A DNA stretch of 64,000 nucleotides from Polyangiaceae bacterium (lineage in GTDB: Bacteria; Myxococcota_A; Polyangia; Polyangiales; Polyangiaceae): assembly GCA_015075635.1 (NCBI GenBank), contig JABTUA010000001.1, forward strand, positions 1,674,001 to 1,738,000, in the 5' to 3' direction. The notes below the pieces were generated by a model. It saw nothing but the letters and a program-made list of their open reading frames with translations, was not told where the DNA came from and did no database searches. Position numbers and translations under genes: made by a program. Below are positions 7,596-63,833 of this stretch, in pieces. Every line of letters starts with the position of its first letter. Within the stretch, counting starts at the first letter, position 1.

Positions 7596-7629
7596 GCCGA
7601 GTCGCGTCGCGCGGTTGGGAGGCGGGCTA

Positions 7630-17674: not shown

Positions 17675-18655
17675 TCAGGGCTCGAAGCGCAGCATCGGGT
17701 TGTGCACCGCGGGGACGCTCTTCAGGTAGTCGTAGATGGCGCCCAGGTCGGCATCGCTCATGCCCGCGTAGAACGTCCAGGGCATCAGCGTGTTCGGCTG
17801 CCCGGCTTCGACCCTGGGCGCCGCCTTGGGATCGCGATAGGCGGCGAAGCGCGCGACGAACTCGGCCCGAGTCCAGCGGCCGATGCCGGTCTCCGCATCG
17901 GGGGTGATGTTCGCGGAGCGCACCGCACCGCCGGTCGGGAGCGGGATGCGGGTGCCGCCGGCCAGGTACATGCCGGCCTTGGGCTCGTTGCCGTCGCGTT
18001 GGGTGTGGCAGTGGGTGCAGCCGCCGACCGTGACCAGGTACTTGCCCGCCGCGAGGGGGTCCTTCGTGCTGTCCGGGCAGGCCCAGGGCTCGGCGGCCTT
18101 CGGCAGCGTGCGGATCAGCAGGCTCACCGGGAAGTCCAGCTGCGCCTCCGGCACCGTGCCGGCCTTCGGAGAGAGCGTGCGCAGGTAGGCGACGATGGCG
18201 TCGGCGTCGCTCTGGCAGAGGTGTGAGAAGTCCTGCCATGGCATCAGCGGAAAGAGCGCGCGCCCGTCCTGGGCGACTCCGGTGGTCATCGCGCGCGCGA
18301 CCTCTCCGTCGCTGTGAGCTCCGACGCCGGCCGGGGTGATGTTCGGCGCGTATACGGTGCCCGGCAAGCCGAGCTCCCGGCCGAAGCGCTGTCCGCCCTT
18401 GCCCTCCGTGCCCGGCACCAGGGGCCCCGAGTAGCGGGAGAAGTCCCGGCTGGAGTGGCAGTCGGTGCAGCCGGCGACGTGGTTGGCCAGGTAACGCCCA
18501 CGCTCGACCGCCTCCGGGGTGGCCGACACCGGCGCGTCGCTCGCCGCCGGCGCGTTGGGCAGACCCGCGTAGACGAACCCGAGCCCAGCCCCGAGCAAGG
18601 ACCCCGGGATCGAGACCGCGACCGAAACCCACTTGAACAGCTTCTTCATGCCCAT
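17675..18655 (-). CDS. Diheme c-type cytochrome
   Basis: A 326-aa exported or membrane-anchored cytochrome c. A hydrophobic N-terminal signal/anchor (SVAVSIPGSLLGAGLGFVYAG) is followed by two heme-attachment sites, CTDCH and CTHCH, each in a cytochrome c domain. Axial-ligand regions around ALFPLMPWQDF and NTLMPWTFYAG complete the two domains. It resembles the cytochrome subunits of periplasmic alcohol/gluconate-type dehydrogenases and would carry electrons in the periplasm. AGGAGG lies 10 bases before the ATG at 18655; an ATG at 18649 is an alternative. It diverges from the kinase/redox operon and shares its upstream region. Confidence 0.88.
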   Translation of the reverse strand: MGMKKLFKWVSVAVSIPGSLLGAGLGFVYAGLPNAPAASDAPVSATPEAVERGRYLANHVAGCTDCHSSRDFSRYSGPLVPGTEGKGGQRFGRELGLPGTVYAPNITPAGVGAHSDGEVARAMTTGVAQDGRALFPLMPWQDFSHLCQSDADAIVAYLRTLSPKAGTVPEAQLDFPVSLLIRTLPKAAEPWACPDSTKDPLAAGKYLVTVGGCTHCHTQRDGNEPKAGMYLAGGTRIPLPTGGAVRSANITPDAETGIGRWTRAEFVARFAAYRDPKAAPRVEAGQPNTLMPWTFYAGMSDADLGAIYDYLKSVPAVHNPMLRFEP

Positions 18656-18707
18656 CTCCGTCGTTCCTCCTGACTCGAGCGAGGATGGGGCTTTGCTGCG
18701 GACCGTG

Positions 18708-18745
18708 TTCCTAAGAGCTTCCTCCGAGCTTCCTATCAATTTCCT
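18708..18745. promoter_or_regulatory. Four TTCCT direct repeats with exact 11-bp period
   Basis: TTCCT occurs at 18708, 18719, 18730 and 18741, so every copy starts 11 bases after the last and lies on the same face of the helix. The block sits in the 264-bp divergent region between the diheme cytochrome gene and the kinase/redox operon. An 11-bp direct-repeat pitch is typical of OmpR/PhoB-family response-regulator operators. Which regulator binds, and whether it controls one or both sides, is not known. No convincing sigma70 promoter was seen in the rest of the region. Confidence 0.5.
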
Positions 18746-18919
18746 ATCCAGCCACCCCGCCCCGGACCCAGGGACTTGCGCTGAGATATCCGGGGGTTGT
18801 CCGGCCCGACTGCAAGGTCGGCGGCGCGCGCGGCGTTTCTGGGCACGCGGCGGGCGGTAGGCTCGACCCCGGGCGGCAGCACGATTCGGCTGCTCGCGCG
18901 TATCAAGGCGGCAAGGCTG

Positions 18920-20068
18920 ATGGAGCGGATTGGCGAGTACCTCGTTCGGCGGCTGGTGGGCGAGGGCGGCATGGGCAAGGTCTACGAGGCCGAGGAGCGC
19001 CTCTCCCGCCGGCGCGTCGCGCTGAAGGTGCTCCGGCCCGAGCTCGCCAAGAGCGAGGAGGGGCGCCGTCTGTTCTTGAACGAGATGACGATCCTCGCGC
19101 ACCTGGACCACCCGAACGTGGTGCGTTGCCTGGCCTGCACCGAGGCGGACGAGCAGCTGGTGATGGCCCTCGAGTACCTCGAAGGCAAGACGCTGCGGGA
19201 GTACCTGAACCAACACGGCGCGTTGCCCTGGGAAGAGGCGGTGGACGTCGCGGTGCAGATCGCGTCGGCGCTCTCCGCCGCGCACCGCCAAGAGCCGCCC
19301 ATCGTGCACCGGGATCTGAAGCCCGAGAACGTGATGATCCTCGACGACGGCGGCGTGAAGGTCATGGACTTCGGCATCGCCAAGGTGCTTCAAGCGCTGA
19401 GCAAGACCACGACGCACAGCGTGGGCACGCTGCAGTACATGAGCCCGGAGCAGATCGACGCGACCGGCGTGGACGCGCGCAGCGATCTCTACTGTCTGGG
19501 CCTGGTGCTGTACGAGATGCTGGCCGGCAAGCCGCCCTTCGAGTCGCCCTCTCCGCGCGAGCTCTTGAACATGCAGTGCACGCAGGCGCCGCCGCCGCTG
19601 GGCGACAAGGTGCGGGGTGCTCTGCCCAAGGGCATCGAGCGCCTGTTGTTCGAGCTGCTCGAGAAGCGCCCCGACGATCGACCGGGCTCTGCGGCGGACG
19701 TATTGCACGAGCTCGAGCCCTTCGCTCCCGCGAGCGGCGGAGCGCGGCGGCGCACCCGGCCGAGCGCGACGGTTCCCGCCGCGAGCGAGCGCGAGGCGGA
19801 GGCCACGGCCAAGAAGGGCCCCGAGGCGGATGTCGCAGAGCGGCCTGCGCCCCGACCGAAGCAGGACAAACCCCGCGCCGACACCATCGCGCTGGTGGAG
19901 AAGGCCGCGGCGCCGCGCGACGTTCCGGCGCGCACGGGGCTCCTGATAGTGGTCCTGCTCAGCCTGATCGCCGGCCTCGTCACCTACCTCGTGCGCGCTT
20001 CTGGCTCGGACGACGAGCCGAGGAACGAGCCCGCGCTCACCGCCAATCCCCGGAGCGAGGCGCGGTGA
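18920..20068 (+). CDS. Hanks-type Ser/Thr protein kinase, tail-anchored
   Basis: A 382-aa kinase with an intact catalytic domain (~residues 5-265): GEGGMGKVY, Lys36 in VALKVL, HRDLKPEN (Asp132), DFG (Asp150) and the SPEQ of the activation segment. A charged Glu/Ala/Lys/Arg linker leads to one membrane helix at about 340-359 and only a short external tail, so it has no sensor domain of its own. The ATG at 18920 has AAGG 4 bases upstream. Its stop overlaps the GTG of the pseudokinase-cytochrome gene, which suggests that the partner supplies the extracytoplasmic sensing part. That pairing is inference. Confidence 0.9.
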   Translation: MERIGEYLVRRLVGEGGMGKVYEAEERLSRRRVALKVLRPELAKSEEGRRLFLNEMTILAHLDHPNVVRCLACTEADEQLVMALEYLEGKTLREYLNQHGALPWEEAVDVAVQIASALSAAHRQEPPIVHRDLKPENVMILDDGGVKVMDFGIAKVLQALSKTTTHSVGTLQYMSPEQIDATGVDARSDLYCLGLVLYEMLAGKPPFESPSPRELLNMQCTQAPPPLGDKVRGALPKGIERLLFELLEKRPDDRPGSAADVLHELEPFAPASGGARRRTRPSATVPAASEREAEATAKKGPEADVAERPAPRPKQDKPRADTIALVEKAAAPRDVPARTGLLIVVLLSLIAGLVTYLVRASGSDDEPRNEPALTANPRSEAR

Positions 20069-22989
20069 GCCGTCGGGAGCTCGGCCGCGTCGGTCGAGCG
20101 CGACGCTTCGAGGCGGGCTCGGCGGAGCTGTGGCGGCTGGGGTCCGAAGAGCGCGCCCTCGCCGAACGGCTCGCGGAGCTCGGGCGCCGCGGTATCGGCG
20201 GCTTCGTCGCCATGGGTGAGGACGCCGATGGGATCTGGGTCGAGCGCCGGGTACCTCGGGAGACGCTGGCGGAGTTCTTGCGCGCGGAGCACGAGCCCAG
20301 CTCGGTGGTCGAGCGCCTCCTGGCCCTCGCGCGTGTGCTCGAGGCGCTGGAGGAGGCGAGCCTGTTCCCGGGACCGCTCTCGCCCAAGGGAGTCGTCGTG
20401 GTCGGCGACCGTGTCGAGCTCCTGGCGGACCCACTGATCCACGCGCTGGTCGGTGAGCCCGCCCTGCCCGACCGCGCCGCGGACAGTGCGTCCCCGCGCT
20501 TCATGCCGCCGGAGCAAGCGGACGGTGCTGCCTGGGACAACGCGGCCAACCGCTACGTGCTCGGGCTGATGCTCTACCGGGGGCTCGCGCTCGAGCACGC
20601 CTTCGCGGTGCGTGGCCTGCGCCACGGTCTCGAGGAGGCGGCGCACCGCGCGCCGCCGCCCATCGCCGACGCGCGGGCCGCCCTGCTGCCCCCCGGGCTT
20701 CAGAGCTTCTGCTTGCGCCTGTTGGATCCGGACCCGCGCGAGCGCCCGAAGAGCGCGGCGGAGATCGCAAGGGGCCTCTCGCGCTTCCTCGCCGGGGAGG
20801 CCCCGAAGACCGCGCGCTCTCCGGACCCCCGAGCGCCCGAGCCACCGCGGGCCGCGGAGCCGACGACCGAGGGCGCGCGTCCGGCCAAGCCAGTCTCCAG
20901 CTGGCGGCTCGGCGCGCTTCTGCCAGTGCTGGCCGGCCTCGCGCTGGCCGCCGTCGCGTTCGCGGCCTTGGACGAGCGTCCTGGCACCGAGAAGCGAGCC
21001 TTGGCTCGGGAGCCGCTCCGGCCGAGCGAGACGCTGGCCAGCGACTGCGCGGCGTGCCACCCGCGCCAGACCGGGGAGTGGCATCGCTCGGTGATGGCGC
21101 ACGCCGCCAAGAGCCCCCTCTACCAGGCGCTGGAGATCTTGATCGAGGAGCAGGTCGGGCGCGACCTCGACTGCCCGAACGGCGCCGGCATTCTGCGCAG
21201 CGCCGGAGCGGGGGCGTGCCGCGATCGCGTCTCCGGATTGCCGGTCACCGGTTCTGGCGGCGAGCTCTGGTGCGTGAACTGTCACGCGCCCGCCGAGAAC
21301 CTGGAGAAGAGCCTGCCGGCCTGGGACGGACGCGGCAGCGACGCGCGCTCCCGCTTGCCGCTCGCGGATCTGCTCTCCGAGCGGGCCATGGAAGGGATCT
21401 CGTGCGGCTTCTGTCATCAGGTGCGCGGGCCGGTGCGCCCGGCGCGAGGCGGCTACCAGGGCAATCCGTTCTGGACGAGCACGCGCACCGGCGAACGCTT
21501 CAGCATGCGCCCCGAAGACGCCCGGGGCGCGTTCGGCATCTCCAATAGCGGCTACGAGCTCGATCCCGCCGAGCTGTTCGCGGCAGCGGCGGCGCCGGAG
21601 GACCGGGTGCCCGGCGGCGCGCACGCCCGACCCACGAAGGCGGCCGCCGCGTTCCTTCAGGACAGTCGCTTCTGCGGCACTTGCCACGACGTGCGCTTGT
21701 TCGGCAGCGACGTGATCGGCGCGCGCAAGGGCGAGCACTTCAAGCGGCTGCGCAACGCGTTCAGCGAGTGGCAGGACTACGTCGCGGCGGAGGCTCGCGC
21801 GGGCCGCAAGGCGGCGAGCTGTCAGGACTGCCACATGTCCACGTTCCCCGGCGTGTGCGAGACCGAACGCGGGGCGCCGGGCGGCAGCGGCTGCCCACCC
21901 GGCACGCGGCTCGTGAAGCGGGCGCCCGGGAGCTATCCCGACGGGCGCTGGGCGAGCAGCTCGGGCGAGCCCAGGAGGAGCACGCCGCACTACTTCAGCG
22001 GGGTCGATCTACCGCTCTCGGCGGAGTTCGCCGATGGCCTGGTCAGTGAGCCCACCGTGGACGTGTTCGGGATCCCGCTCGGAGCCGCCCAGCGGCGCCA
22101 GATTCTGCTGCAAGCGAGCGTTTCGCTGAAGCTCGAGGGTCCCGCCCTGCGCGGCGCGACGCTCGAGCTGCCGGTGGTGTTCGAAAACGTGGGCGGCGGG
22201 CACCGAGTCCCTGCGGGGTTCAGCCAAGAACGCGAGGTCTGGCTGCACCTCCGCGTCAGCGACGCCCGCGGGCGCCGGGTCTACGAGGTCGGGCGCGTGG
22301 AGCGCGACGACGAGGATCTGCGGGACAAGGTCTTCTTGCGCGTCAACACCGACGACGGGCTCCGCGACGGGCAGGGGCGTCCGCTCGGGATGTTCGGCGC
22401 CGACGTCGCCGATGGGCCGGACGTCCCGCGCTTCAGCCCGAACCCGGCGCGCGGCGGCCAGCGCTTCCGGGGGCGAGGCCTGGTGAACTTCCAGAACGGC
22501 TTCTTGCGCTGCGTGGTCTGCATCGGCAGCGTGGACGCGAGCGGCCGCTGCCAGCCCTTGCCGGGCCAGGAGCGCGCGCGCGCCGATCGCTACGCCGACG
22601 GCACCTACGATCCGGACACGGGCGAGTGCCAGAGCAACTTGCTCGGCGACGAGGCGCTGTTCGAGACCTACTTCCCCATCGGTGCCCTGGACGCGACGCG
22701 CGGCGCGACGCGCGGTCCCGACGCCATCATCGACACGCGCTCGCTGCCGCCGCGCGTCCCCATCACCTACGTCTACGAGATCCCGACCAGCGGGTTCACG
22801 CCACCCTTCGAGGTCGAGACACGGCTCCTGTTCCGGGCCTTCCCGCCCTTCCTGCTGCGCGCGTTCATCGACTACGAGCGCCGGCAGGCGCGCCTGGGCA
22901 AGCGCCCCAGCGGACCCGCAATCGACCAGAGCGCGCTCGCTCGGAACACCATCGTGGAGATGGCCCGCGTGAGCACGGTGGTGCGGTGA
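20065..22989 (+). CDS. Pseudokinase-TM-pentaheme cytochrome c fusion
   Basis: A 974-aa fusion. Residues ~1-255 align by order and spacing with a Ser/Thr kinase, but the catalytic residues are missing: the HRD region reads FPGPLSPKG, the DFG region reads LADPLIH, while the activation-segment PPEQ and the late RERP motif survive. A Pro-rich linker leads to one membrane helix (~280-302). The external part holds five heme sites, CAACH, CVNCH, CGFCH, CGTCH and CQDCH at residues 328, 403, 447, 537 and 586, then a large beta-rich domain. The topology puts the pseudokinase in the cytoplasm and the hemes in the periplasm. The GTGA overlap fixes the start. Confidence 0.82.
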   Translation: MSRRELGRVGRARRFEAGSAELWRLGSEERALAERLAELGRRGIGGFVAMGEDADGIWVERRVPRETLAEFLRAEHEPSSVVERLLALARVLEALEEASLFPGPLSPKGVVVVGDRVELLADPLIHALVGEPALPDRAADSASPRFMPPEQADGAAWDNAANRYVLGLMLYRGLALEHAFAVRGLRHGLEEAAHRAPPPIADARAALLPPGLQSFCLRLLDPDPRERPKSAAEIARGLSRFLAGEAPKTARSPDPRAPEPPRAAEPTTEGARPAKPVSSWRLGALLPVLAGLALAAVAFAALDERPGTEKRALAREPLRPSETLASDCAACHPRQTGEWHRSVMAHAAKSPLYQALEILIEEQVGRDLDCPNGAGILRSAGAGACRDRVSGLPVTGSGGELWCVNCHAPAENLEKSLPAWDGRGSDARSRLPLADLLSERAMEGISCGFCHQVRGPVRPARGGYQGNPFWTSTRTGERFSMRPEDARGAFGISNSGYELDPAELFAAAAAPEDRVPGGAHARPTKAAAAFLQDSRFCGTCHDVRLFGSDVIGARKGEHFKRLRNAFSEWQDYVAAEARAGRKAASCQDCHMSTFPGVCETERGAPGGSGCPPGTRLVKRAPGSYPDGRWASSSGEPRRSTPHYFSGVDLPLSAEFADGLVSEPTVDVFGIPLGAAQRRQILLQASVSLKLEGPALRGATLELPVVFENVGGGHRVPAGFSQEREVWLHLRVSDARGRRVYEVGRVERDDEDLRDKVFLRVNTDDGLRDGQGRPLGMFGADVADGPDVPRFSPNPARGGQRFRGRGLVNFQNGFLRCVVCIGSVDASGRCQPLPGQERARADRYADGTYDPDTGECQSNLLGDEALFETYFPIGALDATRGATRGPDAIIDTRSLPPRVPITYVYEIPTSGFTPPFEVETRLLFRAFPPFLLRAFIDYERRQARLGKRPSGPAIDQSALARNTIVEMARVSTVVR

Positions 22990-25241
22990 GCTCGAGCGCC
23001 TGGCCGCCCTCGGTGTTCGACGCGCCGGCGCTCGTCGGCCTCGACGCCCGCGCACGCGCCGAGGTCGAACGCGCCGGGCGTTGGCGCGAGCTCGCCGCCG
23101 GCGACGTGCTCTACCGCGCTGGTGAGCCGAGCGACGCGCTCTTCGTGGTGTCGAGCGGCGCGCTCCGCCTGACCGCGGTGCGCCGCGGCGACGAGCACGA
23201 GAGCGAGCTGCGGCGCGCGCGGCGGGGCGACACGCTGGGCGAAGAAGCGGCGCTGCCGGGCGCCGCGCGGGCGGCCACCGCCACGGCAGAGCAAGCCTGC
23301 GAGCTGGCCGAGATCCCCATGGGCGTCTTGACGCGGGCGCTGGCCAAGAGCGGCGGCGACGGCCTGCCGCGCGAGGAGCGCGCGCTGCGTCGCGCGGCTT
23401 CCCGCGACCTGCTCGGCACGCTGGCGTTCGCCCGGGACCTGCCCGGAGAAGATCTGGAGCTCTTGCTCGACGGGGTGCGCTGGACCGCGCTGCCTCGACG
23501 CGCACGCCTGTTCGGAGTGGGCGATCCGTCGGACGCGGCGTACCTGGTGGTGAGCGGACTGCTCCAGCTCCAGACCGAGCACGAAGGTCGAGTCCAGGTG
23601 CGGGCCTACGTGAGCCGAGGCGACCTGTTCGGAGACGAAGACGCGCTCTCGGGGGAGCGGCGCGGCGTGCACGCCGTGGCCAAGGGAGATTGCCAGCTCT
23701 TGGCGGTGCCACGCGCGCTGCTCCGCTCGCTCGTCGATCGCAACCCGGGAGTGCTCGAGCGCATCGCGCGTCTTCGGGCGGAGCGCGTGGCGCGCCAGCG
23801 GCGAGTCGCCGACGCTTCCGTAAAGACCACCCAGCACGTGTTCCAGGATCTGTATCGACTGCAGATGGCGCGCTCGCTCCTGGCCATCGACCAAGACCGA
23901 TGCGTCCGCTGCGGTCATTGCGCCTGGGCTTGTGCGGACACCCACGACGGCGTCGCGCGCCTGGTGCGCCGAGGAGACAAAATCGTGACGGAGCTCGCGG
24001 TGGCCGAGAGCGCCGCGAAGAGCCTGATGTTGCCGAGCTCGTGCCAGCACTGCCACAACCCGGTGTGCATGATCGACTGCCCTACGGGCGCCATCGGTCG
24101 CGATCCGGAAGGGGACGTGTTCATTCGCGAGGCGCTCTGCACCGGCTGCGGCGCCTGCGCCAAGGCCTGCCCCTGGGAGAACATCCGGATGGCGCCCCGC
24201 GCCGCCGGCGGCGGCTCGGAGGAGGTCGCGGTGAAGTGCGACCTGTGCAAGGGCTTCGACGCCCCAGCCTGTGTCAGCGCTTGCCCGACCGAGGCCATCA
24301 CCCGGCTGGATCCGCAGCGCGACTTCCGCGAGCTCGGCGCGCTGTTCGGCGGCGAGTCGGCGGTCGCCAGCGCGGCGCCGGAGCGCTCGGGCTGGCTCGC
24401 GCTCGCGCCCTCGGTCGGTGTCGCGCTCGCCATCGGGCTGGTCCCGGCCGGCGTGCTCTTCCACGCGCGCGCGCTCGGGTCGCCGGGAAGCGGTCTGCCC
24501 TACGCGGCGGGGCTCGGCGCGCTCCTCGGCTGCTTCGGGCTCGCCGCCTACGCGCTGCCCAAGCGCCTGGGCAAGCGCTGGACGAAGCCCCGCGCGCGCA
24601 AGACGGACGCTCGAGAGATGCCTGCACCGCGCTCGCGCGTCGTTCCGCACTATCGGCTGCACGTCGCGCTCGGCCTCGGGACGGTGGCTGCGGTCGCGCT
24701 GCACTCCGGCGGACGCATCGGTCACGGCTTGGCCGGCGCGCTCTCGGTGGCGTTCTGGCTGACGGCGCTCCTCGGTGGGGTCGCCGCGCTGGCCTACCGC
24801 GGGATCCCCGCGCGGCTCTCGCGTCTCGAGCGAAAGGGCGCGCTGCCCGAGGATCTGGCACTGGAGAACGACACCTTGTTCGATCGGCTGCACCGCGCGA
24901 CCAGCGGCACCAGCGAGCTGACAAAGACCATCACCGAGAAGCTGCTGGTCCCATACGCGCGCTCACCGTTCGGCGCCCTCGCGCTGATCGCGTCCGGTCG
25001 CACGCTCAGCCAGGAGCGCAGCGTGCTCCGCGCGCGCGTGGACGCCGTGCTCGAGGGCCGCGGCGGAGAACGGCTGGACGGGCTCGATGAGCTGATCCGC
25101 ATCGTGGTCGAGCTCCGCGCGCTGCCCGCGCGACGCTTGCTGACCTTCTGCCTGAGAGGCCTGGTTCCCGCGCACCTGCTCGGGACCGGGATCTTGCTCG
25201 TGCTGCTGGCGCTGCACGTGCTCCAGATGACGAGGTGGTGA
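22986..25241 (+). CDS. Double cNMP-binding, four-[4Fe-4S] membrane redox protein
   Basis: A 751-aa protein with domains in this order. Two cyclic-nucleotide-binding-like barrels lie at about 10-130 and 150-270 (LFVVSSGALRL, then AYLVVSGLLQL and GDLFGDEDAL). A ferredoxin region at ~300-440 has Cys clusters beginning at residues 306, 353, 385 and 418, for example CVRCGHCAWAC and CTGCGACAKAC, giving up to four [4Fe-4S] clusters as in HybA/DmsB-type subunits. Four hydrophobic helices follow (~460-600), some with His that could ligate heme b, and a last helix near the C-terminus. CQHCH at 353 belongs to the ferredoxin pattern and is not a heme site. GTGA-coupled to the previous gene. Confidence 0.82.
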   Translation: MSSSAWPPSVFDAPALVGLDARARAEVERAGRWRELAAGDVLYRAGEPSDALFVVSSGALRLTAVRRGDEHESELRRARRGDTLGEEAALPGAARAATATAEQACELAEIPMGVLTRALAKSGGDGLPREERALRRAASRDLLGTLAFARDLPGEDLELLLDGVRWTALPRRARLFGVGDPSDAAYLVVSGLLQLQTEHEGRVQVRAYVSRGDLFGDEDALSGERRGVHAVAKGDCQLLAVPRALLRSLVDRNPGVLERIARLRAERVARQRRVADASVKTTQHVFQDLYRLQMARSLLAIDQDRCVRCGHCAWACADTHDGVARLVRRGDKIVTELAVAESAAKSLMLPSSCQHCHNPVCMIDCPTGAIGRDPEGDVFIREALCTGCGACAKACPWENIRMAPRAAGGGSEEVAVKCDLCKGFDAPACVSACPTEAITRLDPQRDFRELGALFGGESAVASAAPERSGWLALAPSVGVALAIGLVPAGVLFHARALGSPGSGLPYAAGLGALLGCFGLAAYALPKRLGKRWTKPRARKTDAREMPAPRSRVVPHYRLHVALGLGTVAAVALHSGGRIGHGLAGALSVAFWLTALLGGVAALAYRGIPARLSRLERKGALPEDLALENDTLFDRLHRATSGTSELTKTITEKLLVPYARSPFGALALIASGRTLSQERSVLRARVDAVLEGRGGERLDGLDELIRIVVELRALPARRLLTFCLRGLVPAHLLGTGILLVLLALHVLQMTRW

Positions 25242-27310
25242 TGGCCGACGACCGTCCCCTCGTCGAGCTCGCGCCCGAGGCTGCCCACGGCCGCCGCCGA
25301 GGCGCGCCGCGCGCGCTCGAGACCAGCGACGTGACGCGATTTCGCGGTCTGCTCCCGGCCGCCGCCGTCGGCGCCGTGGTGGCCGCCGCGCTCGCGATCT
25401 GGAGCAGCGGGCTGCCCGGGCTGCGCTCTCCCGGCGGGCAGTCGCGCCCGCATCGCCTCGCCAAGCTCGAATGCGGGAGCTGCCACACCGACGAGGGCAA
25501 GCCCCAGGAGGCCTGCCGGCGCTGTCACGGCGGGCTCCCCTCGGAGCGCCCGGCGCACCAGGAGTTGCGGAGGCGGCGCGAGCTCGGCTGTACCAGCTGC
25601 CACGCAATCCATCGCGCCGACGAAGGCGTGGCGTTCACGCCCGACGGCGCGGTGATCCGCTACGGCACGGGCTGGGAGCGCGAGCTCTCGGGGGAGCACA
25701 CTCTGTTCCGCCCGACCAAGACCGTGAGCGTGCCGCTGGTCCCGGCGCGCGCGTGCGCCAAGTGCCACGACCTCGGACGGCAGGACGATCCGATCCGGGA
25801 GTGCCTGATCGAGGGCCAGCGCTCGCCCGAGCGCCCCACGGTCTGCTTCGACGAGCACCGCGCCGTCAGCGGGCTGGCCGGCGTCGGGGCGAAGGTCGCC
25901 CCCGGCGCCACCACCGAGCGCGACGCCGCCTGGGAAGCGGCGCGCGAGGTCGCCAGCCGCGGCGCCGCGCCGGCGCTCGCCGGCGTCGCGGGCAGCCCCG
26001 TCGGGATCGTCGGCAGCGGCTTCGGCGCTGCGCTGCTCGTGTTCGGGGGGCTCAGACTACGGGCACGCCGTCGCTCCGCGCGACTGGAGCAGGCTCGGCG
26101 TCAGCTCAGCGTGGTGCAGCCGGCAGCAGTGCGACGCGTGCCACACGTGGACGTGGCCACCTGCCTCGGCTGCTATGCCTGCGTCGACGCTTGCCCCTAC
26201 GACGTGCTCGAGGTGCGGCGCTACGTCGCGGTCGTTGCTCGACCCGACGACTGCTGTGGTTTGACGCTGTGCGAGCAGCGCTGTCCGAACGGGTCCCTGG
26301 TGGTCAGCGATGGCGACCCCATCGACGACCGCCCCAAGGTGAAGGACACGCTGGAGTCGGTGGACGTGCCGGGGCTCTACCTGGCCGGCGATCTCACCGG
26401 GCTGCCTCTGATCCGCAACGCCATCAACCAAGGCTCGCACGCCGTGCGCGAGATCGCCGAGCGGCAGGGGCGCGCGCGCGACCGCGACGGCGACCTCGAC
26501 CTGATCGTCGTCGGCGCCGGTCCCGCGGGCATCAGCGCGGCGCTCGAGGCCAAGGCCCGAGGGCTCACGGCGAAGCTCTTGGAGCAGGCGACGGTCGCCG
26601 CCAGCATCCAGAGCTTCCCTCGCGGCAAGCTGGTGTTCGACCAACCCCTGGGCATGCCCATGGTGGGCGACCTGTGGCTGGAGGAGTCCACCAAGGAGGA
26701 GCTCTTGGCCAAGTGGCTCCGCATCGTGCGTCGGGCGGAGCTCGACATCGACGAGGGGCGCCGTGTCACTCGGGTCGAGCGGCACGGCGAAGCGTTCGTC
26801 GTGACGGCGCTCGGCGAGGAAGGCGGCGAGCGGGTCTATCGCGCGCGGAACGTCCTGCTCGCCATCGGCCGCCGGGGCTCGCCGCGCCGGCTGGACGTAC
26901 CCATCGCCCAGGCGGCCGAGTCCCGCGTGTTCTACGCGCTGGTGGACGCCCGGGCGTTCGCCGGACAGCGCGTGGTCGTGGTGGGACTCGGGGACACGGC
27001 GATGGAGACGGCCATCGCGCTCGCCCGCCAGCCCGCCACCCGGGTCACCCTGGTCTACCGCGGCAGCGGGTTCCGTCGCGGGAAGGCTCGCAACATCGAC
27101 GAGGTGAAGCGCCTCGTCGGGCAGGGGCGGGTCCAGCTCGCCTTCGACTCCACGGTGGCGCGCGTGGAGCCGGATCACGTCGTGCTGCGGACGACAGCGG
27201 GCGAAGAGCGCGTGGACGCCGACGCCGTGTTCGTGCTGATCGGCTCGATCTTGCCCTGGGAGTTCCTGGGCGCCGTGGGTGTCCGGCGCGGCGCGGCATC
27301 CGCAGGATGA
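25241..27310 (+). CDS. Tetraheme cytochrome-[4Fe-4S]-flavoprotein (YpdA/TrxR-like) fusion
   Basis: A 689-aa fusion. After a membrane helix (~35-58) it has four CxxCH sites (CGSCH, CRRCH, CTSCH, CAKCH at residues 78, 92, 117 and 172), then a second helix (~247-270). A ferredoxin domain begins at 308 with CLGCYACVDACPYD, followed by a Cys-rich CCGLTLCEQRCPNG. The last ~270 residues are a two-dinucleotide flavoprotein: GAGPAGISAALEA for FAD and VVGLGDTAMETAIA for NAD(P). It resembles the thioredoxin-reductase/YpdA group without the CxxC redox pair. This could pass electrons between NAD(P)H and periplasmic hemes across the membrane. The ATG overlaps the preceding stop (TGATG). Confidence 0.82.
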   Translation: MADDRPLVELAPEAAHGRRRGAPRALETSDVTRFRGLLPAAAVGAVVAAALAIWSSGLPGLRSPGGQSRPHRLAKLECGSCHTDEGKPQEACRRCHGGLPSERPAHQELRRRRELGCTSCHAIHRADEGVAFTPDGAVIRYGTGWERELSGEHTLFRPTKTVSVPLVPARACAKCHDLGRQDDPIRECLIEGQRSPERPTVCFDEHRAVSGLAGVGAKVAPGATTERDAAWEAAREVASRGAAPALAGVAGSPVGIVGSGFGAALLVFGGLRLRARRRSARLEQARRQLSVVQPAAVRRVPHVDVATCLGCYACVDACPYDVLEVRRYVAVVARPDDCCGLTLCEQRCPNGSLVVSDGDPIDDRPKVKDTLESVDVPGLYLAGDLTGLPLIRNAINQGSHAVREIAERQGRARDRDGDLDLIVVGAGPAGISAALEAKARGLTAKLLEQATVAASIQSFPRGKLVFDQPLGMPMVGDLWLEESTKEELLAKWLRIVRRAELDIDEGRRVTRVERHGEAFVVTALGEEGGERVYRARNVLLAIGRRGSPRRLDVPIAQAAESRVFYALVDARAFAGQRVVVVGLGDTAMETAIALARQPATRVTLVYRGSGFRRGKARNIDEVKRLVGQGRVQLAFDSTVARVEPDHVVLRTTAGEERVDADAVFVLIGSILPWEFLGAVGVRRGAASAG

Positions 27311-27436: not shown

Positions 27437-28921
27437 ATGAAGGTCAAGAGCGTCGCGGGCCTGGCGGCCATCGGAATGTTGCTGTCGAGCGTGTCGGTCT
27501 GGTCCCTGACCAAGCCTCGGCTCGAGCCAGAGCCCCTCGGCGGGGTGGGGGGCGCGGAGCCGGAGCAGCCCGAGGTCCCGGCCCACCCGGGCGCCAGCTT
27601 CACTGCCGGCAGGACGCTGATGATGGAGGGCCGACTCGGCCACGGCAAGCTCCTCGCCAGCAAGGACAACCAGACCATGCTGCTGGTCAACGTGGCGGCG
27701 GACGGGTCCGGGGCGCCGCCCGTGGCCGCGCCGCTCAACCTGGCCATCGTGATCGATCGCTCGGGGTCGATGAAGGGCAAGCGCTTGCAGAACGCCATCG
27801 ACGGCGCCCGCGGCATGGTGCGCCGCCTACGCGACGGGGACGTGGTGTCCGTCGTGACCTACAGCCAGACCGCCGAGGTCTTGGTCGCCCCGACGACGGT
27901 GGACTCCTTCTCGCGCGACCGCGTCAGCGCCTCGCTGGGCACCATCTCCGCGCTGGGCGACACCTGCATCTCGTGCGGCATCGACGAGGGCATGGCTCAG
28001 CTGCGCCAGCGCAGCGGGATGATCGACCGCATCTTGCTGCTCTCCGACGGCGAGGCCACCGCGGGCGTGCGCGACCCGGAGGGTTTCCGGGCCATCGGCG
28101 CGCGCATCCGCAACATGGGCGCCAGCATCAGCAGCGTCGGCGTCGACGTCGACTACAACGAGCGCGTGATGAACACGCTGGCCATCGAGTCGAACGGCCG
28201 GCACCACTTCGTGGAGAACGCGGCGGATCTTCCCCGCGTGTTCGATCAGGAGCTGGACACGCTGGCCAAGTCGCTGGCGAAGAACGCCGAGGTCGCCATC
28301 GACCTGGCGCCGGGCGTGGAGGTCGAGCGCGTGTTCGATCGCACGTTCCGCCGCGAGGGCCGCAAGCTGTTCGTGCCCCTCGGCAGCTTCAGCTCCGGCG
28401 AAGAGAAGACGCTCCTGGTCTCGCTGCGCGTTCCGCGTGGCGCGAGCGGCGAGCGGCCCGTCGCCGACATCAAGATGGGCTACGACGACCTGTCTTCGGG
28501 CACGCTGCTCGGGACCCGGGGCGAGTGCCAAGGCAAGCTGAGCGCGCTCTTGACCGACAACCCCGCGAACGTGAGCGAGATCGACCCGTTGGTCACCGCG
28601 CGCATGCTGCGCAGCCAGACCGCCGCCGCGCTCACCGAGGCGAACGAGCTGTGGGCCGCGGGCCGCGGCGAGGAAGCGCGGCGCAAGCTCGACGCGCGCC
28701 TCGACGACCTGAAGAAGCAGCGCGAGGCGACCGTGGCGCGGGCGCCGTCGCCCGCCAAAGCGAAGCTCGAAGCGGATTTCCAGGGTCAATCGAGCGCGCT
28801 CGGACAGGCCAATGAAGGGTTCTCGTCGCCGCCTGCCGGGGCCGCTCCAGCGGAAGCCGAGCGCAAGGGCAAGGCGCAGGTTCGCAGCAACGCGACCAAG
28901 GCGCTGGACTTGGCTTTCTAG
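27437..28921 (+). CDS. Exported VWA-domain protein
   Basis: A 494-aa protein with an N-terminal hydrophobic signal/anchor (AGLAAIGMLLSSVSVWSL). The von Willebrand A domain (~95-275) has an intact metal site, DRSGS in AIVIDRSGSMKGK, with later Thr/Asp positions around GDTCISCG and LLLSDGEAT. The C-terminal half has a beta-rich part and an alpha-helical Ala/Glu/Arg stretch. The role is probably protein-protein contact in the envelope. GGGAGG 10 bases before the ATG at 27437 supports this start. It precedes the giant VIT/VWA gene by 103 bases, so the two may be paired. Confidence 0.85.
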   Translation: MKVKSVAGLAAIGMLLSSVSVWSLTKPRLEPEPLGGVGGAEPEQPEVPAHPGASFTAGRTLMMEGRLGHGKLLASKDNQTMLLVNVAADGSGAPPVAAPLNLAIVIDRSGSMKGKRLQNAIDGARGMVRRLRDGDVVSVVTYSQTAEVLVAPTTVDSFSRDRVSASLGTISALGDTCISCGIDEGMAQLRQRSGMIDRILLLSDGEATAGVRDPEGFRAIGARIRNMGASISSVGVDVDYNERVMNTLAIESNGRHHFVENAADLPRVFDQELDTLAKSLAKNAEVAIDLAPGVEVERVFDRTFRREGRKLFVPLGSFSSGEEKTLLVSLRVPRGASGERPVADIKMGYDDLSSGTLLGTRGECQGKLSALLTDNPANVSEIDPLVTARMLRSQTAAALTEANELWAAGRGEEARRKLDARLDDLKKQREATVARAPSPAKAKLEADFQGQSSALGQANEGFSSPPAGAAPAEAERKGKAQVRSNATKALDLAF

Positions 28922-29024
28922 AGTTGATTCTTCACTCCGTGGGACTTGTGGATTTGCCTGGACCGCAGGAACATTCGCACCAAGGGACGCCTCGTAGGCG
29001 GAGTCCGAATCGGCGGAGGAAGAC

Positions 29025-32000
29025 ATGAGTGAGAACCTCAAGGCGTCGCGCGCGCGAACACTCACGCGGCTCGTACTGGCAGTGCTCGGCCTCGGGCTCT
29101 TCGTCGCGGTGCTGCTCGCGGTCGCGCTCCGCAAGCCGCCGCCGGCGAAGGCGTCGCCGATCCAAGCGCGGCTCGAGCTGGCCGCCGGAGAGGTCAGCGT
29201 GGACCTGGGCCAGGGACCGGCGCGCGCGGTGAGCGGTACGCCGTTGCTCGCAGACGCGAAGATCACCACCGAGAAGGGCGCCCGGGCGCTGGTACGGCTG
29301 CCCGACGGGTCGCGCCTGTTCATGCGGGCCGAGAGCAGCATCAAGCTGGGCGGCGAGTCGGTCGTGCTCGAGAAGGGCGAGTACTTCCTCGACGCCCCGC
29401 CGACCGATCGCAAGCCGATGGTGCACGAGATCGCCGCGACGAGCGTGACGGCGGCGGAGGCCGGCGTGGCCATCCGTCGCGACGGCGCCGACGCCTCCGT
29501 GTACGTCGCTCGGGGCATGGCCACCGTCACGGGCAAAGGCGGCCGCGCCGAGGTGAAGGCCGGCGAGCAAGGCAGCGTGAAGGGAGAAGCCGCGCCCGTC
29601 GTCGCCGCGCTCGCGTTTTGGGAGGACTGGACCGGCGGCATGGCCGATTTCTCCTCGGGCAGCGGCGTGCCCGGCGCTGGCGCCGGCACCATTTACGGAG
29701 TGGACGTCGGAGCGCTGCCCGGCAGCGCGGCCAAGCGCCTGGAGATCGGCCGCCAGAGCGTGCGCGCCGTGGTGCGCGAGGGGCTCAGCGAGACCGAGGT
29801 CGACCAGACCTTCTTCAACCCGGGCGAGCGCGACGTGGAAGGCTGGTACTGGTTCACGGTGCCGGACAACGCCAGCGTCACGAGCTTCGCGCTCGAGACC
29901 AACGGCAACCTGATCGAAGGCGAGTTCATCGAGTCGAAGGAGGCGGCCGCGCAGTACACCGCCGCCAAACAAACCGGCCATTCTCCCGCGATCTTGGAGT
30001 GGGTGGACGCCCGCAGCTACCGCGCGCGCATCTACCCGATCCGCGCCGGGGGCACCCGTCGAGTGGTGCTGCGCTACGTGCAGATCAACCCTTCGAACGA
30101 CGGCAAGCTCACCTACGTCTACCCGATGGGGCAGGGCGATCCGGTGCGCATCGGCGAGTTCTCGCTCAGCGTGGATCTGGGCGAAGCCGGGCCGAAGATG
30201 AAGCTCTCGACCTTGGTGGACGCGCGCGTCGAGGGCAACGGACGCAGCGTGACCATGCGTCGCTCCGGCTACACGCCCCGCGCGGACTTCCAGCTGGAGG
30301 CGACGCTGCCGGATCGGCGCCCGGCGCTGGCCGTGTCGCGCCACAAGGCCGACGGCGAGAGCGCCGACTACGTGATGGTGCGCTACACGCCGGACCTCGA
30401 CTGGAAAGGCGTGAAGCAACAGCGCGGCGACGTGGTCGTGGTGGTGGACACCTCCGCGGCCGGGGACGAGTCGTCGCGGCAGCTCAAGACGGCGACCGCG
30501 GAGGCCATCATGCGCGCGCTCTCGGACGACGATCGCTTCGCCCTGGTGGCGCTCGACGTGCGCCCGACCGTGCTGCACCCGAAAGAAGGCATGGCAGCGG
30601 CCAGCGAGGGCGAGATCGCCAAGGCGCTCGAGGCGCTGGCGGGGCACCAACCGGGGGGCGCCACCGACATCGCCAGCATGTTCGACGTCTCGCTCCAGCG
30701 CCTGCACGGGGCCGAGCAGCCTGCCGTGGTCTACGTCGGCGACGGCGTGGCCACCAGCGGCGAGCTCAGCGGCGAGCAGATCGTGGAGCGCCTGCGGCGC
30801 GCGCTCGGCACCTCTCGCTCGCGCCTGTTCGCGGTGGGCGTCGGCTCGGAGGCGAACTACCCGCTGCTCGCCGAGCTCTCCCGGGCCGGCGGCGGCAGCG
30901 CGTTCCGTGTGGACGAGGCCGAGCAGACCACCGCGCGCGCGCTGGAGCTGACCGCGGCGCTCAAGGTCCCGACCATCACCGATCTGGAGCTCGATCTCGG
31001 CGCCGGCCTGGACGAGCCGTTCTACAGCGCCAGCGGCAAGGTCAGCCGCGGCCAGGAGGTCGTGGTGCTGGCCCGCACCCACCACGACCTGCCCAAACGC
31101 GTGAAGGTGAAGGGGCGCATCGGCGGCGAGCAGTTCACGAAGGAGTACGAGGCCGAGCGCGAGACGAGCGTGATCGCCGAGTTCGTGCCGCGGCTCTGGG
31201 CGGCGGAGTACGTCCGGCGCTTGCTCGGTGGCTCGCAGGGACCGGACGCGGAGCGCGGGCGCATCGTGGCCCTCGGCCTGGAGTACGGCCTGATGACGCC
31301 GTTCACCAGCATCCTCGCGCTCGAGAGCGAGGGCGCGTATTACCAGATGGGGATCCAGCGCAAGAAGAAGAGCAAGCTCCGCGGCAAGCAGCTCACCCTG
31401 CTCGACCTCGACGCGGACAGCGAGCGGCGCCTGGCGCTTCGTCACGCCGCCATCACGCCGCCCGGGTTCATGCCGCTCGGTTGCAGCAAGCTCGACCTGG
31501 GCGCCTCGAACGAGAAGGAGTCGGCTCCGGCGTCACGACCAGCGCCCGCCACCCAGGCGCAGCCGGGCTACGCGCCGGGTCCGCGCGCGGACATGGAAGA
31601 GCAGAAGGCCGAGGCGCCGATGGCGGCGGAGCCGATGCCGGCGCCGACCATCGCCCCCGCCGCGCCGCAGGAAGAAGCTCTCGACCAGGGCGCCATGGGT
31701 CGAAAAGGCGGAGGCTTCGCCGCGGGGGCAGGCGGCCCACCGAGGGCCGCGGCTCGCCCGAAGGCTCGGCCCATCGACGGCGACGACCTGAACCAACCCG
31801 CCAAGCCGACCATGCTGCCCCAGGCTCCGCCGCCGGTGCTGGAGAAGAAGAAGGTCGCAGCACCGGTCAAGCTCGACCCGGAGGTTGCGTCACCCTACGG
31901 CGGTAAGCTGGGCAAGGACCAGGAGGCGGACAAGCGCGGCGTCGCGCTGGCGGCCCCCGCGCTCCGCACCTGCAGCGACGCCGCGGCGCGGCCCTTGGCC

Positions 32001-33236
32001 CAGCGCGTGCTGCTCTGGCAGAAGCGGCTCAAGACCATCAAGAGCCCGGCGGAGCTCGTGCAACGCTACGACGCCGCCCTCGGCGCTTGCGAGCTGTCCG
32101 ACTGGCGCGCGGAGCGCACCTTCCTCGATCTCTTGCAGAAGCGCGTCGACGGCGAGGGCTCTGCGAGCGTCGTGCTCGCGCACTTCGTGGGCCGCCCGGA
32201 GGTCCAGAAGTTCGTCGCCAAGCTGATCCTGCGCCGGGCCGTGGACGGGCGCCTGGTGGCGGCGGTGGAGCGCGCGCTCTTCGGCAGCGCGGTGGACTGG
32301 CCGAAGCTCGATCTCGAGCTGTCCGAGATCGGGGACGTGGACAAGCGCATCGAGAAGGTGCGCGAGGCCAGCGCGAAGGCGCCGGAGGATCCCAACGGCG
32401 GCATGCGACTGGTCAAGCTCTTGGTCGAAGCCGACAAGAAGGACGAGGCCGTGGCGCTGGGACACCGCCTGCGCGATCAGGGGTTCCTCACGCCCAACAT
32501 CGCCCGCGAAATCGGCGACGTCCTGGCCCGCGCGGGCCTGGCCGACGAGGCGGTGCGTACCTACTCCGAGATCGTCGAGTTCGATCCGGAGGGCATCGAC
32601 TCGCGCCGCCTGCTCGGGGACATCTACCTGGGGCACGGCTGGTACGAGCCGGCCTATCGCCAGTACCGCACCATCACCGAGCTGGCGAAGGACGACGCGC
32701 TCGGCTGGCTCCGGCTGGCGGCGGCGGCCGCCGGCGCCGGTCGCGTGGACGAGGCGCTCAGGCTCGAGCGCAAGATCGCCAACGCCCAGGGTACGCCCGG
32801 GCCGACCGATCCGCGGCGCTGGGCGCGCATGCTGTCGGCCGCTCGGCTCGCGCGCCTGGTCGAGAAACCGCCGGCGGGGACCAAGCCGGAGAGCGTGAAG
32901 CGAGAGCTGAAGGAGCTGCAGCTCTTCAGCGGCGCGGGTACGTTGGTGCTCCTGACCTGGGAGGATCTCTCGGCGGACGTCCAGCTCGTGACTCGGCTCG
33001 ACGACAAGGACCTCGGGCTCGGCGAGGCGACCGATGCCGCCAAGGCGGGGCTATCGTCGGTGCTCTTGACCACACCCGACGCGGAGCGCGCGGCGTTCTT
33101 GGCGCGGCTCCGTAGCGCGAAGAAGGACGCGCCAGTGAAGCTCCAGCGCCACGACGTGGTCTGGGACGGCAAAGACTTCAAGGTCAGCTCGAAGGCGGTC
33201 GAACTCGGCGCCAAGGCGAGCGAAGCGACGCTTTGA
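29025..33236 (+). CDS. Giant FecR-VIT-VWA-TPR envelope protein
   Basis: A 1403-aa membrane-anchored protein. One N-terminal helix (~12-36) is followed by a FecR-like beta domain (~45-190; LFMRAESSIKLGGESVVLEKGEYF region) and a VIT domain (~235-365; SVRAVVREGLSETEVDQ and the family YRARIYPI). The VWA domain (~455-620) has a degenerate metal site, VDTSAA instead of DxSxS. A Pro/Ala-rich linker and a C-terminal TPR-like segment (~1150-1260) complete it. The loss of the last metal-site Ser contrasts with the intact neighbour upstream, so the two VWA domains may act as a pair. The stop overlaps the TTG of rsmE. Confidence 0.8.
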   Translation: MSENLKASRARTLTRLVLAVLGLGLFVAVLLAVALRKPPPAKASPIQARLELAAGEVSVDLGQGPARAVSGTPLLADAKITTEKGARALVRLPDGSRLFMRAESSIKLGGESVVLEKGEYFLDAPPTDRKPMVHEIAATSVTAAEAGVAIRRDGADASVYVARGMATVTGKGGRAEVKAGEQGSVKGEAAPVVAALAFWEDWTGGMADFSSGSGVPGAGAGTIYGVDVGALPGSAAKRLEIGRQSVRAVVREGLSETEVDQTFFNPGERDVEGWYWFTVPDNASVTSFALETNGNLIEGEFIESKEAAAQYTAAKQTGHSPAILEWVDARSYRARIYPIRAGGTRRVVLRYVQINPSNDGKLTYVYPMGQGDPVRIGEFSLSVDLGEAGPKMKLSTLVDARVEGNGRSVTMRRSGYTPRADFQLEATLPDRRPALAVSRHKADGESADYVMVRYTPDLDWKGVKQQRGDVVVVVDTSAAGDESSRQLKTATAEAIMRALSDDDRFALVALDVRPTVLHPKEGMAAASEGEIAKALEALAGHQPGGATDIASMFDVSLQRLHGAEQPAVVYVGDGVATSGELSGEQIVERLRRALGTSRSRLFAVGVGSEANYPLLAELSRAGGGSAFRVDEAEQTTARALELTAALKVPTITDLELDLGAGLDEPFYSASGKVSRGQEVVVLARTHHDLPKRVKVKGRIGGEQFTKEYEAERETSVIAEFVPRLWAAEYVRRLLGGSQGPDAERGRIVALGLEYGLMTPFTSILALESEGAYYQMGIQRKKKSKLRGKQLTLLDLDADSERRLALRHAAITPPGFMPLGCSKLDLGASNEKESAPASRPAPATQAQPGYAPGPRADMEEQKAEAPMAAEPMPAPTIAPAAPQEEALDQGAMGRKGGGFAAGAGGPPRAAARPKARPIDGDDLNQPAKPTMLPQAPPPVLEKKKVAAPVKLDPEVASPYGGKLGKDQEADKRGVALAAPALRTCSDAAARPLAQRVLLWQKRLKTIKSPAELVQRYDAALGACELSDWRAERTFLDLLQKRVDGEGSASVVLAHFVGRPEVQKFVAKLILRRAVDGRLVAAVERALFGSAVDWPKLDLELSEIGDVDKRIEKVREASAKAPEDPNGGMRLVKLLVEADKKDEAVALGHRLRDQGFLTPNIAREIGDVLARAGLADEAVRTYSEIVEFDPEGIDSRRLLGDIYLGHGWYEPAYRQYRTITELAKDDALGWLRLAAAAAGAGRVDEALRLERKIANAQGTPGPTDPRRWARMLSAARLARLVEKPPAGTKPESVKRELKELQLFSGAGTLVLLTWEDLSADVQLVTRLDDKDLGLGEATDAAKAGLSSVLLTTPDAERAAFLARLRSAKKDAPVKLQRHDVVWDGKDFKVSSKAVELGAKASEATL

Positions 33237-33976: not shown

Positions 33977-34859
33977 CGAAGCCGAGCGCGCGAGTGCGTT
34001 CGGCGAACGCCTCCAGCCACTCCGGCTCGAGCGGCGCGAGCTCGGTCGCCTCCGGCTGAAGCGAGGGGCGCGCGAGCGTGTACAGATGGATGCCGGCGAC
34101 CGGCACGCCCTCCCGGGCGAGGCCCCCGAGCGCCGCGAGGTAGGCCGCCTGCTCGAGTTCGCTCGGCGCCGTCCCGTGCCAGCGAAACCAACAGGTCTGG
34201 AGCCACGTGGGGCAGGCACGCGCCGCGGAGCGGAGCTTCTGCAAGTGCTCCGCCGGCGTAGCGTGACACGAGTTGATGCGTCGCGCGCCTTCGGCGGTTG
34301 CGCTGTCGAGCTTGAACCAGAGCTCGCCGCCCAGCTCGGCCAAGCGAGCGACGGCGGCGCGCACCTCGGGCTTCTCGAGCATCGACCCGTTGGTGATCAG
34401 GAGGACCTTCAGCTTGCCGCGGAGCCCGAAGCGCTCGAGCGCTCGCCCCACCACCTCGAGCGCCGGGCCGAAGTCCGGCGAGGTCGTCGGCTCTCCGTTT
34501 CCCGAGAAGGCGATGTCGGTCAGGCGGCGCGCCCCTTCGGGCGCGCGCTGGAGGAAGTCGCCGTTCAGGACCGCATCGAGCATCTCCTCGAGCTCGCTGG
34601 CGAAGAGCTCGAGATCGATGGCCGGGCCCTTGCCGGCCACGAGCTCCGGCACCTGGCAGTACACGCAGCGCCAGTTGCAGGCGTTGTTCGGGTTCAGGTT
34701 CACGCCGATGCTCACGCCGCCGGCGCGGCGCGACACGACAGGGTAGACGTAGCGCATCCCCGCGAGATCGCGGCGGTGGTCGCTCACGCTGAGGGAGCGC
34801 ACCCGATCGAGCCGGTCGGACACTTCCGGGAGTCTAGCCTCCGCCGGGCAGTGGCCCAT
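33957..34859 (-). CDS. Radical SAM enzyme
   Basis: A 300-aa radical SAM protein. The [4Fe-4S] ligands are the three Cys in CNWRCVYCQ (CxxxCxxC). The 'GGE-like' segment is SGNGEPT, and the barrel strands continue through VLLITNGSML and the region FRWHG. No C-terminal SPASM or TRAM domain is evident. It resembles the short wyosine-type/MoaA-related radical SAM proteins, but the substrate is not known. It overlaps rsmE tail to tail and diverges from the downstream kinase gene with 95 bases between the two starts. Confidence 0.82.
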   Translation of the reverse strand: MGHCPAEARLPEVSDRLDRVRSLSVSDHRRDLAGMRYVYPVVSRRAGGVSIGVNLNPNNACNWRCVYCQVPELVAGKGPAIDLELFASELEEMLDAVLNGDFLQRAPEGARRLTDIAFSGNGEPTTSPDFGPALEVVGRALERFGLRGKLKVLLITNGSMLEKPEVRAAVARLAELGGELWFKLDSATAEGARRINSCHATPAEHLQKLRSAARACPTWLQTCWFRWHGTAPSELEQAAYLAALGGLAREGVPVAGIHLYTLARPSLQPEATELAPLEPEWLEAFAERTRALGFVTKVSL

Positions 34860-34954
34860 CCCTCGGGAAAAGCACGGCCAGCTTGATCCCGGGTGCGAGC
34901 GTGCTTTCCTCAGGCTTCTCGCATGCGCCAGCAGGTGGACCAGGAGGGGGCAGC

Positions 34955-63473: not shown

Positions 63474-63518
63474 GCCTGCCAGGAACCGTGCTAACACGGC
63501 CCGAAAGGGAGAATTTCG

Positions 63519-63833
63519 ATGGCTTTTCGGCCGACTTGGGGGTGGGCCTTGGCGGGGGTGCTGCTCTCGGGGTGCGGTGGGGGGGCGGTCACGCCGGCCA
63601 TGCTGACCGCGGCCCAGAAGCGCTGGCCAGACGCCTCGGAGCAGTCCCTCGGGCACGGGCGCGACCTATTCGCCCAGAAGTGCAAGACCTGCCACGCCCT
63701 ACCCGCGCCGAAGGACCACTCGGCGGAGGAATGGCAGAAGCTGATGGTGAAGATGGGCAAGCTCGCGGAGCTCGACGCTTCGGGTCGCGAGGCGGTGCTG
63801 CGCTTCGTGATCGCGGCGCGGGAAGCCGAGTGA
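63519..63833 (+). CDS. Monoheme cytochrome c-like lipoprotein
   Basis: A 104-aa exported protein. The lipobox is in VLLSGC. One heme site is present, CKTCH at about residues 55-59, and a Met in the LMVKMGK stretch could be the sixth ligand. It is a small periplasmic electron carrier in all likelihood. AAGGGAG ahead of the ATG is a good ribosome site. The stop overlaps the GTG of the next gene, which has no known link to electron transport. Confidence 0.82.
   Translation: MAFRPTWGWALAGVLLSGCGGGAVTPAMLTAAQKRWPDASEQSLGHGRDLFAQKCKTCHALPAPKDHSAEEWQKLMVKMGKLAELDASGREAVLRFVIAAREAE

Follow-up and report, generated by a model that had tools for sequence, protein, structure and literature searches.

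A conserved gene module of Polyangia places a Ser/Thr kinase and a pseudokinase beside a predicted transmembrane electron-transfer chain

The window examined here, a stretch of 64,000 nucleotides from the genome of a Polyangiaceae bacterium (contig JABTUA010000001.1), holds four overlapping forward-strand genes that combine eukaryote-like signaling domains with redox cofactors on both sides of a membrane. Gene 1 (18920..20068) encodes a Hanks-type Ser/Thr kinase with one C-terminal transmembrane (TM) segment, and gene 2 (20065..22989) a pseudokinase joined through a TM segment (residues 284-302) to a periplasmic pentaheme cytochrome c. Gene 3 (22986..25241) encodes tandem cyclic nucleotide monophosphate (cNMP)-binding domains, an NrfC/DmsB-like iron-sulfur (FeS) domain for four [4Fe-4S] clusters and a five-TM predicted diheme cytochrome b. 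The product of gene 4 (25241..27310) runs from a TM segment through a periplasmic tetraheme region and a second TM segment to a cytoplasmic 2[4Fe-4S] region and a permuted flavin adenine dinucleotide (FAD)/NAD(P) domain of thioredoxin reductase (TrxR)/YpdA-like type. Genes 1 and 4 start with ATG and genes 2 and 3 with GTG. We interpret this set, with modest confidence, as an inner-membrane electron conduit that carries electrons from NAD(P)H to periplasmic hemes and whose activity is set by kinase and cNMP signaling. A sequence-only reading of the window had described overlaps at every junction, and re-reading the DNA bore this out: genes 1 and 2 overlap by 4 bp (GTGA), genes 2 and 3 by 4 bp, and genes 3 and 4 by 1 bp (TGATG). 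The pieces it had named were likewise recovered by Pfam, fold and motif counts. The Pfam scan of the window genes returned Pkinase, two cNMP_binding stretches, ferredoxin domains and Pyr_redox_3, with weak multiheme matches, and CXXCH motifs number five in gene 2, none in gene 3 and four in gene 4.

The module recurs in other genomes. A search of GTDB contigs with gene 4 returned 51 loci, nearly all from Polyangia, with Polyangiaceae, Nannocystaceae, Sorangium, Labilithrix and Kofleriaceae represented; in the few loci of Planctomycetota and Verrucomicrobia the match was essentially confined to the flavin region. About 25 relatives share the order of kinase, pseudokinase-cytochrome, cNMP-FeS protein and heme-flavoprotein. 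When pairwise distances for five proteins were compared by the mirror-tree approach, correlations ranged from 0.77 to 0.94, with none of 999 permutations as high, a pattern that shows co-inheritance and that vertical descent alone could also yield. With the pentaheme protein as query, the pentaheme part was found in 11 of 284 sampled Myxococcota genomes, 8 of the 11 being close matches that also possess genes 3 and 4. Conserved order and correlated distances thus uphold the earlier proposal of a single module. The synteny anticipated for both Myxococcota and Planctomycetota held in part: the order recurs across Polyangia, whereas Planctomycetota, in which no phylum-wide search was made, gave a related flavin domain only and not the intact module. 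In two Sorangium loci (L043, 5186-9798, and L055, 3839-8877), genes for two large secreted proteins separate the cNMP-FeS gene from the heme-flavoprotein gene; their domains (a weak VWA match, PPC and DUF4215) are uninformative.

Gene 3 appears to hold the passage through the bilayer. The 16 cysteines of its FeS domain are invariant in 32 sequences and are enough for four [4Fe-4S] clusters, as in NrfC and DmsB, with NCBIfam scores that lie under every cut-off (65.7 against 377.6 and 65.8 against 214.1) and so do not reach the NrfC/DmsB equivalog level. The membrane part spans 286 residues and has 16 invariant columns, four of which are histidines. These are its only invariant histidines, and they form two Hx13H pairs, H559/H573 and H730/H744, in predicted TM3 and TM5; an AlphaFold2 (AF2) model (predicted local distance difference test score, pLDDT, of 80) places the pairs on helices 553-574 and 700-750. 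Distant relatives of gene 3, some of them near the detection limit, carry Hx13H pairs within hydrophobic stretches as well, and in 20 of 20 the number of pairs is exactly two. Shuffling the window membrane domain produced two or more such pairs in 1.4% of cases, a figure that demands neither TM position nor conservation. Pfam traces in the membrane part include Ni_hydr_CYTB (5 of 28 members, best E 0.05, and 28 bits in the relative L096), Ferric_reduct and cytochrome b561. Positive-inside reasoning would put H559 and H730 on the cytoplasmic side and H573 and H744 on the periplasmic side, in the geometry of a bis-His diheme b. The membrane part is therefore predicted to be a diheme cytochrome b, which would supply the electron wire across the membrane that the sequence-only reading lacked. 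The cNMP tandem resembles a cyclic-nucleotide-binding (CNB) pair of the PKA-R/PKG type in fold (Foldseek probability 1.00), and its pocket residues are mostly kept: E86 in 28 of 29 sequences, R95 in 26 of 29, D217 in 30 of 31 and R226 in 29 of 31. Binding of cyclic nucleotides by the tandem is plausible on these residues.

Gene 4 supplies cofactors on both sides of the membrane. Hydropathy suggests a cytoplasmic N-terminus, a TM segment at about residues 36-58, the tetraheme region outside, and a second TM segment at about residues 250-271, followed by six basic residues and the FeS and flavin domains inside; flanking charges likewise place the hemes outside and FeS/FAD inside. The four CXXCH motifs and four further histidines (71, 106, 124 and 206) are all invariant and fit bis-His ligation. 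The flavin domain is of the Pyr_redox_2/3 type and matches the YpdA model at 1.5e-38 (Pfam and NCBIfam). Its TrxR-type terminal FAD motif, PGLYLAGDLTGLPLI (PGxYLAGDxxGxPLI, residues 377-391), stands ahead of the Rossmann GxGxxG at residue 425, while in conventional TrxR controls it lies at the C-terminus; the match is to a short motif, one that occupies the same position in every aligned gene-4 sequence. Furthermore, the redox-active CXXC is missing from all 23 aligned flavin domains, whereas the TrxR controls have CAVCDGA. By these motifs the domain is a circularly permuted, non-thiol flavoprotein. A thioredoxin reductase or other thiol function for gene 4 is ruled out by the missing CXXC, and for the same reason electron transfer is the probable role of the domain.

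Taken in order, these domains outline a chain. NAD(P)H would reduce the FAD of the permuted domain of gene 4, and electrons would pass through the two [4Fe-4S] clusters of gene 4 to the four of gene 3. Two stacked b hemes would take them across the bilayer, from H559/H730 on the cytoplasmic face to H573/H744 on the periplasmic face, and they would leave to the tetraheme domain of gene 4 and the pentaheme domain of gene 2. The kinase, the cNMP tandem and the cytoplasmic pseudokinase of gene 2 would form a control layer through which kinase and cyclic nucleotide govern assembly or flux, with the VWA protein encoded downstream as a putative extracytoplasmic partner. The path from FAD through FeS and membrane to heme, suggested earlier from domain order, proved physically plausible once the predicted diheme-b wire was added to that order. 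An alternative is a chain coupled to quinones. The diheme b and FeS domains of gene 3 might exchange electrons with menaquinol, as CbcL or subunits of the FdnI/NarI type do, and the c hemes would then be the output of a quinol oxidase or the input of a quinone reductase, with the flavoprotein feeding or draining the same pool. A diheme b beside an NrfC/DmsB-like FeS domain is a standard quinone-linked layout, cytochrome b561 traces appear in Pfam, and CbcL homologues offer a precedent (PMC6295460). However, CbcL has no cytoplasmic FAD/FeS entry on a tetraheme polypeptide, and we consider this coupling a credible but unlikely alternative to direct transfer from NAD(P)H.

The kinase of gene 1 matches Pkinase at 4.3e-58, and its VALK, HRDLKPEN and DFG motifs, which carry the VAIK Lys, HRD and DFG residues of the Hanks type, are conserved in 24 orthologues; gene 1 is predicted to encode an active Hanks-type Ser/Thr kinase. 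Its single TM segment occupies residues 340-358 of 382. The PASTA kinase equivalog NF033483 scores 294.7 bits, below the cut-off of 450, and no PASTA domain is among the Pfam matches. The N-terminal half of gene 2 was confirmed as a pseudokinase by fold and by missing catalytic residues: an AF2 model compared with Foldseek matched PknB-like kinases with probability 1.00, and none of the 25 orthologues retains the VAIK Lys, HRD or DFG, although most keep a PPEQ remnant. In its C-terminal half the five CXXCH motifs are invariant across 26 sequences. Candidate distal ligands are H520, H642 and H713 (each in 26 of 26) and H558 (23 of 26), and for heme 1 either H346 (22 of 26) or the invariant M344 (in W..SVM; residues 328-346). 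Related cytochromes have a distal His at the place of this Met, and one heme of gene 2 may be His/Met-ligated or open. A profile of the pentaheme part searched against the PDB gave one insignificant match and no solved structure alike.

This fusion of a pseudokinase to cytochrome hemes also suggests a reversed logic, in which electron flow is itself the signal. The cytochromes would read the extracytoplasmic redox state and relay it inward through hemes and FeS clusters to the pseudokinase, with the kinase as output. Pseudokinases often regulate active kinases, and the active kinase gene overlaps the pseudokinase-cytochrome gene. But at least 15 predicted redox centers and an NAD(P)/FAD domain exceed the needs of a sensor, and the core also occurs without kinase, pseudokinase or FHA domains; on balance we judge a sensory role improbable.

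The association of the kinase with the redox genes was assessed in the 25 loci that have the start of gene 2 plus upstream sequence, counted from tables. The same kinase orthologue adjoins gene 2 in 23 of them, with 54-70% identity to the window kinase, compared with 25-36% for other kinases of the same loci. In L021, L041 and L099 the kinase is divergently oriented yet adjacent, and in L018 it lies downstream. That a metabolic redox operon merely has one of over 150 kinases as its chance neighbor finds some encouragement in the high kinase density of the genome and in the lack of kinase enrichment near the stand-alone FeS-flavoprotein described below (4 of 14 stretches), but it is very hard to reconcile with one orthologue that overlaps or directly adjoins gene 2 and has remained next to the module in these rearranged operons, and we regard it as highly improbable. 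The VWA gene, the fifth conserved gene (27437..28921, forward strand; Pfam VWA 8e-15), encodes a secreted or periplasmic protein. Clustering of flanking genes placed it directly downstream of the module in most relatives, and it keeps a metal ion-dependent adhesion site (DxSGSM; DRSGS in the window) together with an invariant TCISCG, a CxxC. It appears to travel with the kinase, since kinase and VWA genes form their own divergent unit in L021, L041 and L099.

Searches with the gene-3 profile extend to further Myxococcota families, in which these domains occur in shuffled arrangements and FHA domains take a prominent place. In apparent fusions read from stop-to-stop frames, a single polypeptide of L096 and L097 unites FHA with flavoprotein, FeS and two cNMP domains; next comes a cytochrome b561-like subunit as a separate protein, after which L096 encodes an FHA-multiheme protein. 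L085-L088 carry one to four FHA domains ahead of FeS-flavin in a single long frame, L094 has the architecture FHA2-cNMP2-FeS, L095 has FHA-flavin, and L093 bears FHA on a multiheme protein. Altogether, FHA domains sit on electron-transfer proteins in 9 of 10 distant gene-3 loci with enough sequence, L098 being the locus without. FHA domains bind phosphothreonine, so the phosphorylation link would not be peculiar to the window; conserved orthologous kinase and FHA fusions together support a tie between the module and Ser/Thr phosphorylation. In L093, L096 and L097 the flavoprotein has the conventional domain order, and this lineage therefore seems separately assembled. Extending the argument, Myxococcota may possess a class of phosphorylation- and cNMP-gated conduits that link cytoplasmic NAD(P)H with multiheme cytochromes of the periplasm, switched by kinase-pseudokinase in Polyangia and by FHA in other lineages; we offer this class tentatively, as a possibility short of a probability.

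A number of observations weigh against a regulated conduit. Many distant gene-3 relatives have no kinase alongside, L014 and L045 lack an adjoining kinase, the L084 module lacks the pseudokinase domain, and the organism's own 9.47-Mb genome encodes at least 151 kinases. Of 284 Myxococcota genomes, 89 encode the FeS-flavoprotein on its own, and its genes usually have no kinase gene next to them. In gene 3, cNMP domain B has Asp at the classical Glu position; the membrane profile found nothing significant in the PDB by hmmsearch and matched no solved cytochrome b; and the matches that Foldseek and VIA-align listed for gene 3 covered the cNMP domains alone. Because the FeS-flavoprotein is widespread without a kinase, the electron core evidently does not need one. 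The refuting condition that the sequence-only reading had set for its module thus applies in part, and the proposal is narrowed accordingly: only in the Polyangia form is the electron core linked to the kinase, and the kinase-pseudokinase layer is, on this distribution, a conserved Polyangia elaboration.

The permuted flavoprotein has further relatives of its own. Stand-alone circularly permuted 2[4Fe-4S]-flavoproteins of about 445 amino acids are present in L009, L010, L102, L103, L104 and L112, and in L102-L104 they lie near a cytochrome b and a 21-CXXCH protein. Paired flavin/FeS proteins of about 800 amino acids in a Phycisphaeraceae locus (L057, 6830-12301) and in another planctomycete (L060, 919-6473) show the same permuted motif order N-terminally, with a conserved gene set alongside.

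Other genes of the window were examined for membership. The diheme cytochrome c gene that diverges from the module (17675..18655, reverse strand; two CXXCH), which the sequence-only reading had included, is present as described and is ruled out as a component; no homologue lies beside the module in any relative (E 1e-5). Downstream of the VWA gene, 28998-33233 (forward strand) encodes a membrane-anchored protein of about 1400 residues. Genes related to it also come after the VWA gene in L013, L025, L036 and L040, and it may be a sixth module gene in close relatives. Two more Ser/Thr kinase genes (7591-9468 and 34838-36712, both forward) give no sign of module membership, and a small cytochrome c-like protein with a single CXXCH is encoded at the right edge of the window (63495-63830, forward). 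Anti-phage defense (PD-T4-6, Pycsar) was ruled out, the similarity being generic to kinase and cNMP domains and genes 4 and 5 having no matches.

Myxobacteria encode hundreds of eukaryote-like kinases, most without a known substrate. The kinase described here has kept its place next to a predicted transmembrane electron-transfer machine throughout a class, and in distant relatives that machine carries phosphothreonine readers. If the gating proposed here is true, Ser/Thr phosphorylation and cyclic nucleotides would switch electron flow across a bacterial membrane, and if the wider class is true, membrane electron transfer would be a direct target of eukaryote-like signaling. The operon is compact enough for expression and assay. 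The open-licence PMC literature searched held no relevant description of the module, of kinase, pseudokinase or FHA domains with multiheme or cNMP-FeS proteins, of a circularly permuted flavoprotein fused to hemes, or of a pseudokinase fused to a cytochrome.

Known systems resemble the module part by part. CbcL, MtrH and MtoC are inner-membrane bc-type cytochromes of Geobacter and others (PMC6295460, PMC12307469), and CbcL homologues, in which a multiheme c is joined to a HydC/FdnI-like b, span 15 phyla (PMC6295460). As in these proteins, a predicted diheme b membrane domain would hand electrons to periplasmic multiheme c; however, theirs combine multiheme c (3-23 CXXCH) and b in one polypeptide, whereas here the c hemes reside in genes 2 and 4 and the module adds FeS, FAD, cNMP, kinase and pseudokinase domains. 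The pentaheme part is weakly similar to ExtKL-type multiheme cytochromes (26.8 bits, far under the 250-bit family cut-off). NrfC/DmsB-type subunits with b anchors such as FdnI and NarI share the 16-Cys FeS domain beside a predicted heme-b membrane domain, but gene 3 has a fused cNMP tandem and the module no conserved molybdopterin partner. In NOX/FRE enzymes NAD(P)H and FAD deliver electrons to two stacked b hemes with His on TM3 and TM5, with which the His placement in gene 3 agrees, while sequence gives no more than a hint of kinship; in contrast, the flavin domain of gene 4 is TrxR-like rather than FNR-type, FeS clusters intervene, and the acceptor would be multiheme c. Rossmann FAD and NAD(P) domains are shared with TrxR, YpdA and TrxR-type ferredoxin-NADP reductase, from which gene 4 differs in lacking CXXC, in its forward-moved C-terminal FAD motif, and in its fused hemes and FeS. 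The tandem CNB fold encoded near a Ser/Thr kinase recalls the PKA regulatory subunit and PKG, yet the CNB domains of gene 3 are fused to FeS and a predicted cytochrome b and not to a kinase or inhibitor sequence. Each part thus has relatives, while the combination is undescribed in the open-licence PMC literature; we place it among the transmembrane redox conduits as a variant that has a realistic prospect of founding a regulated class.

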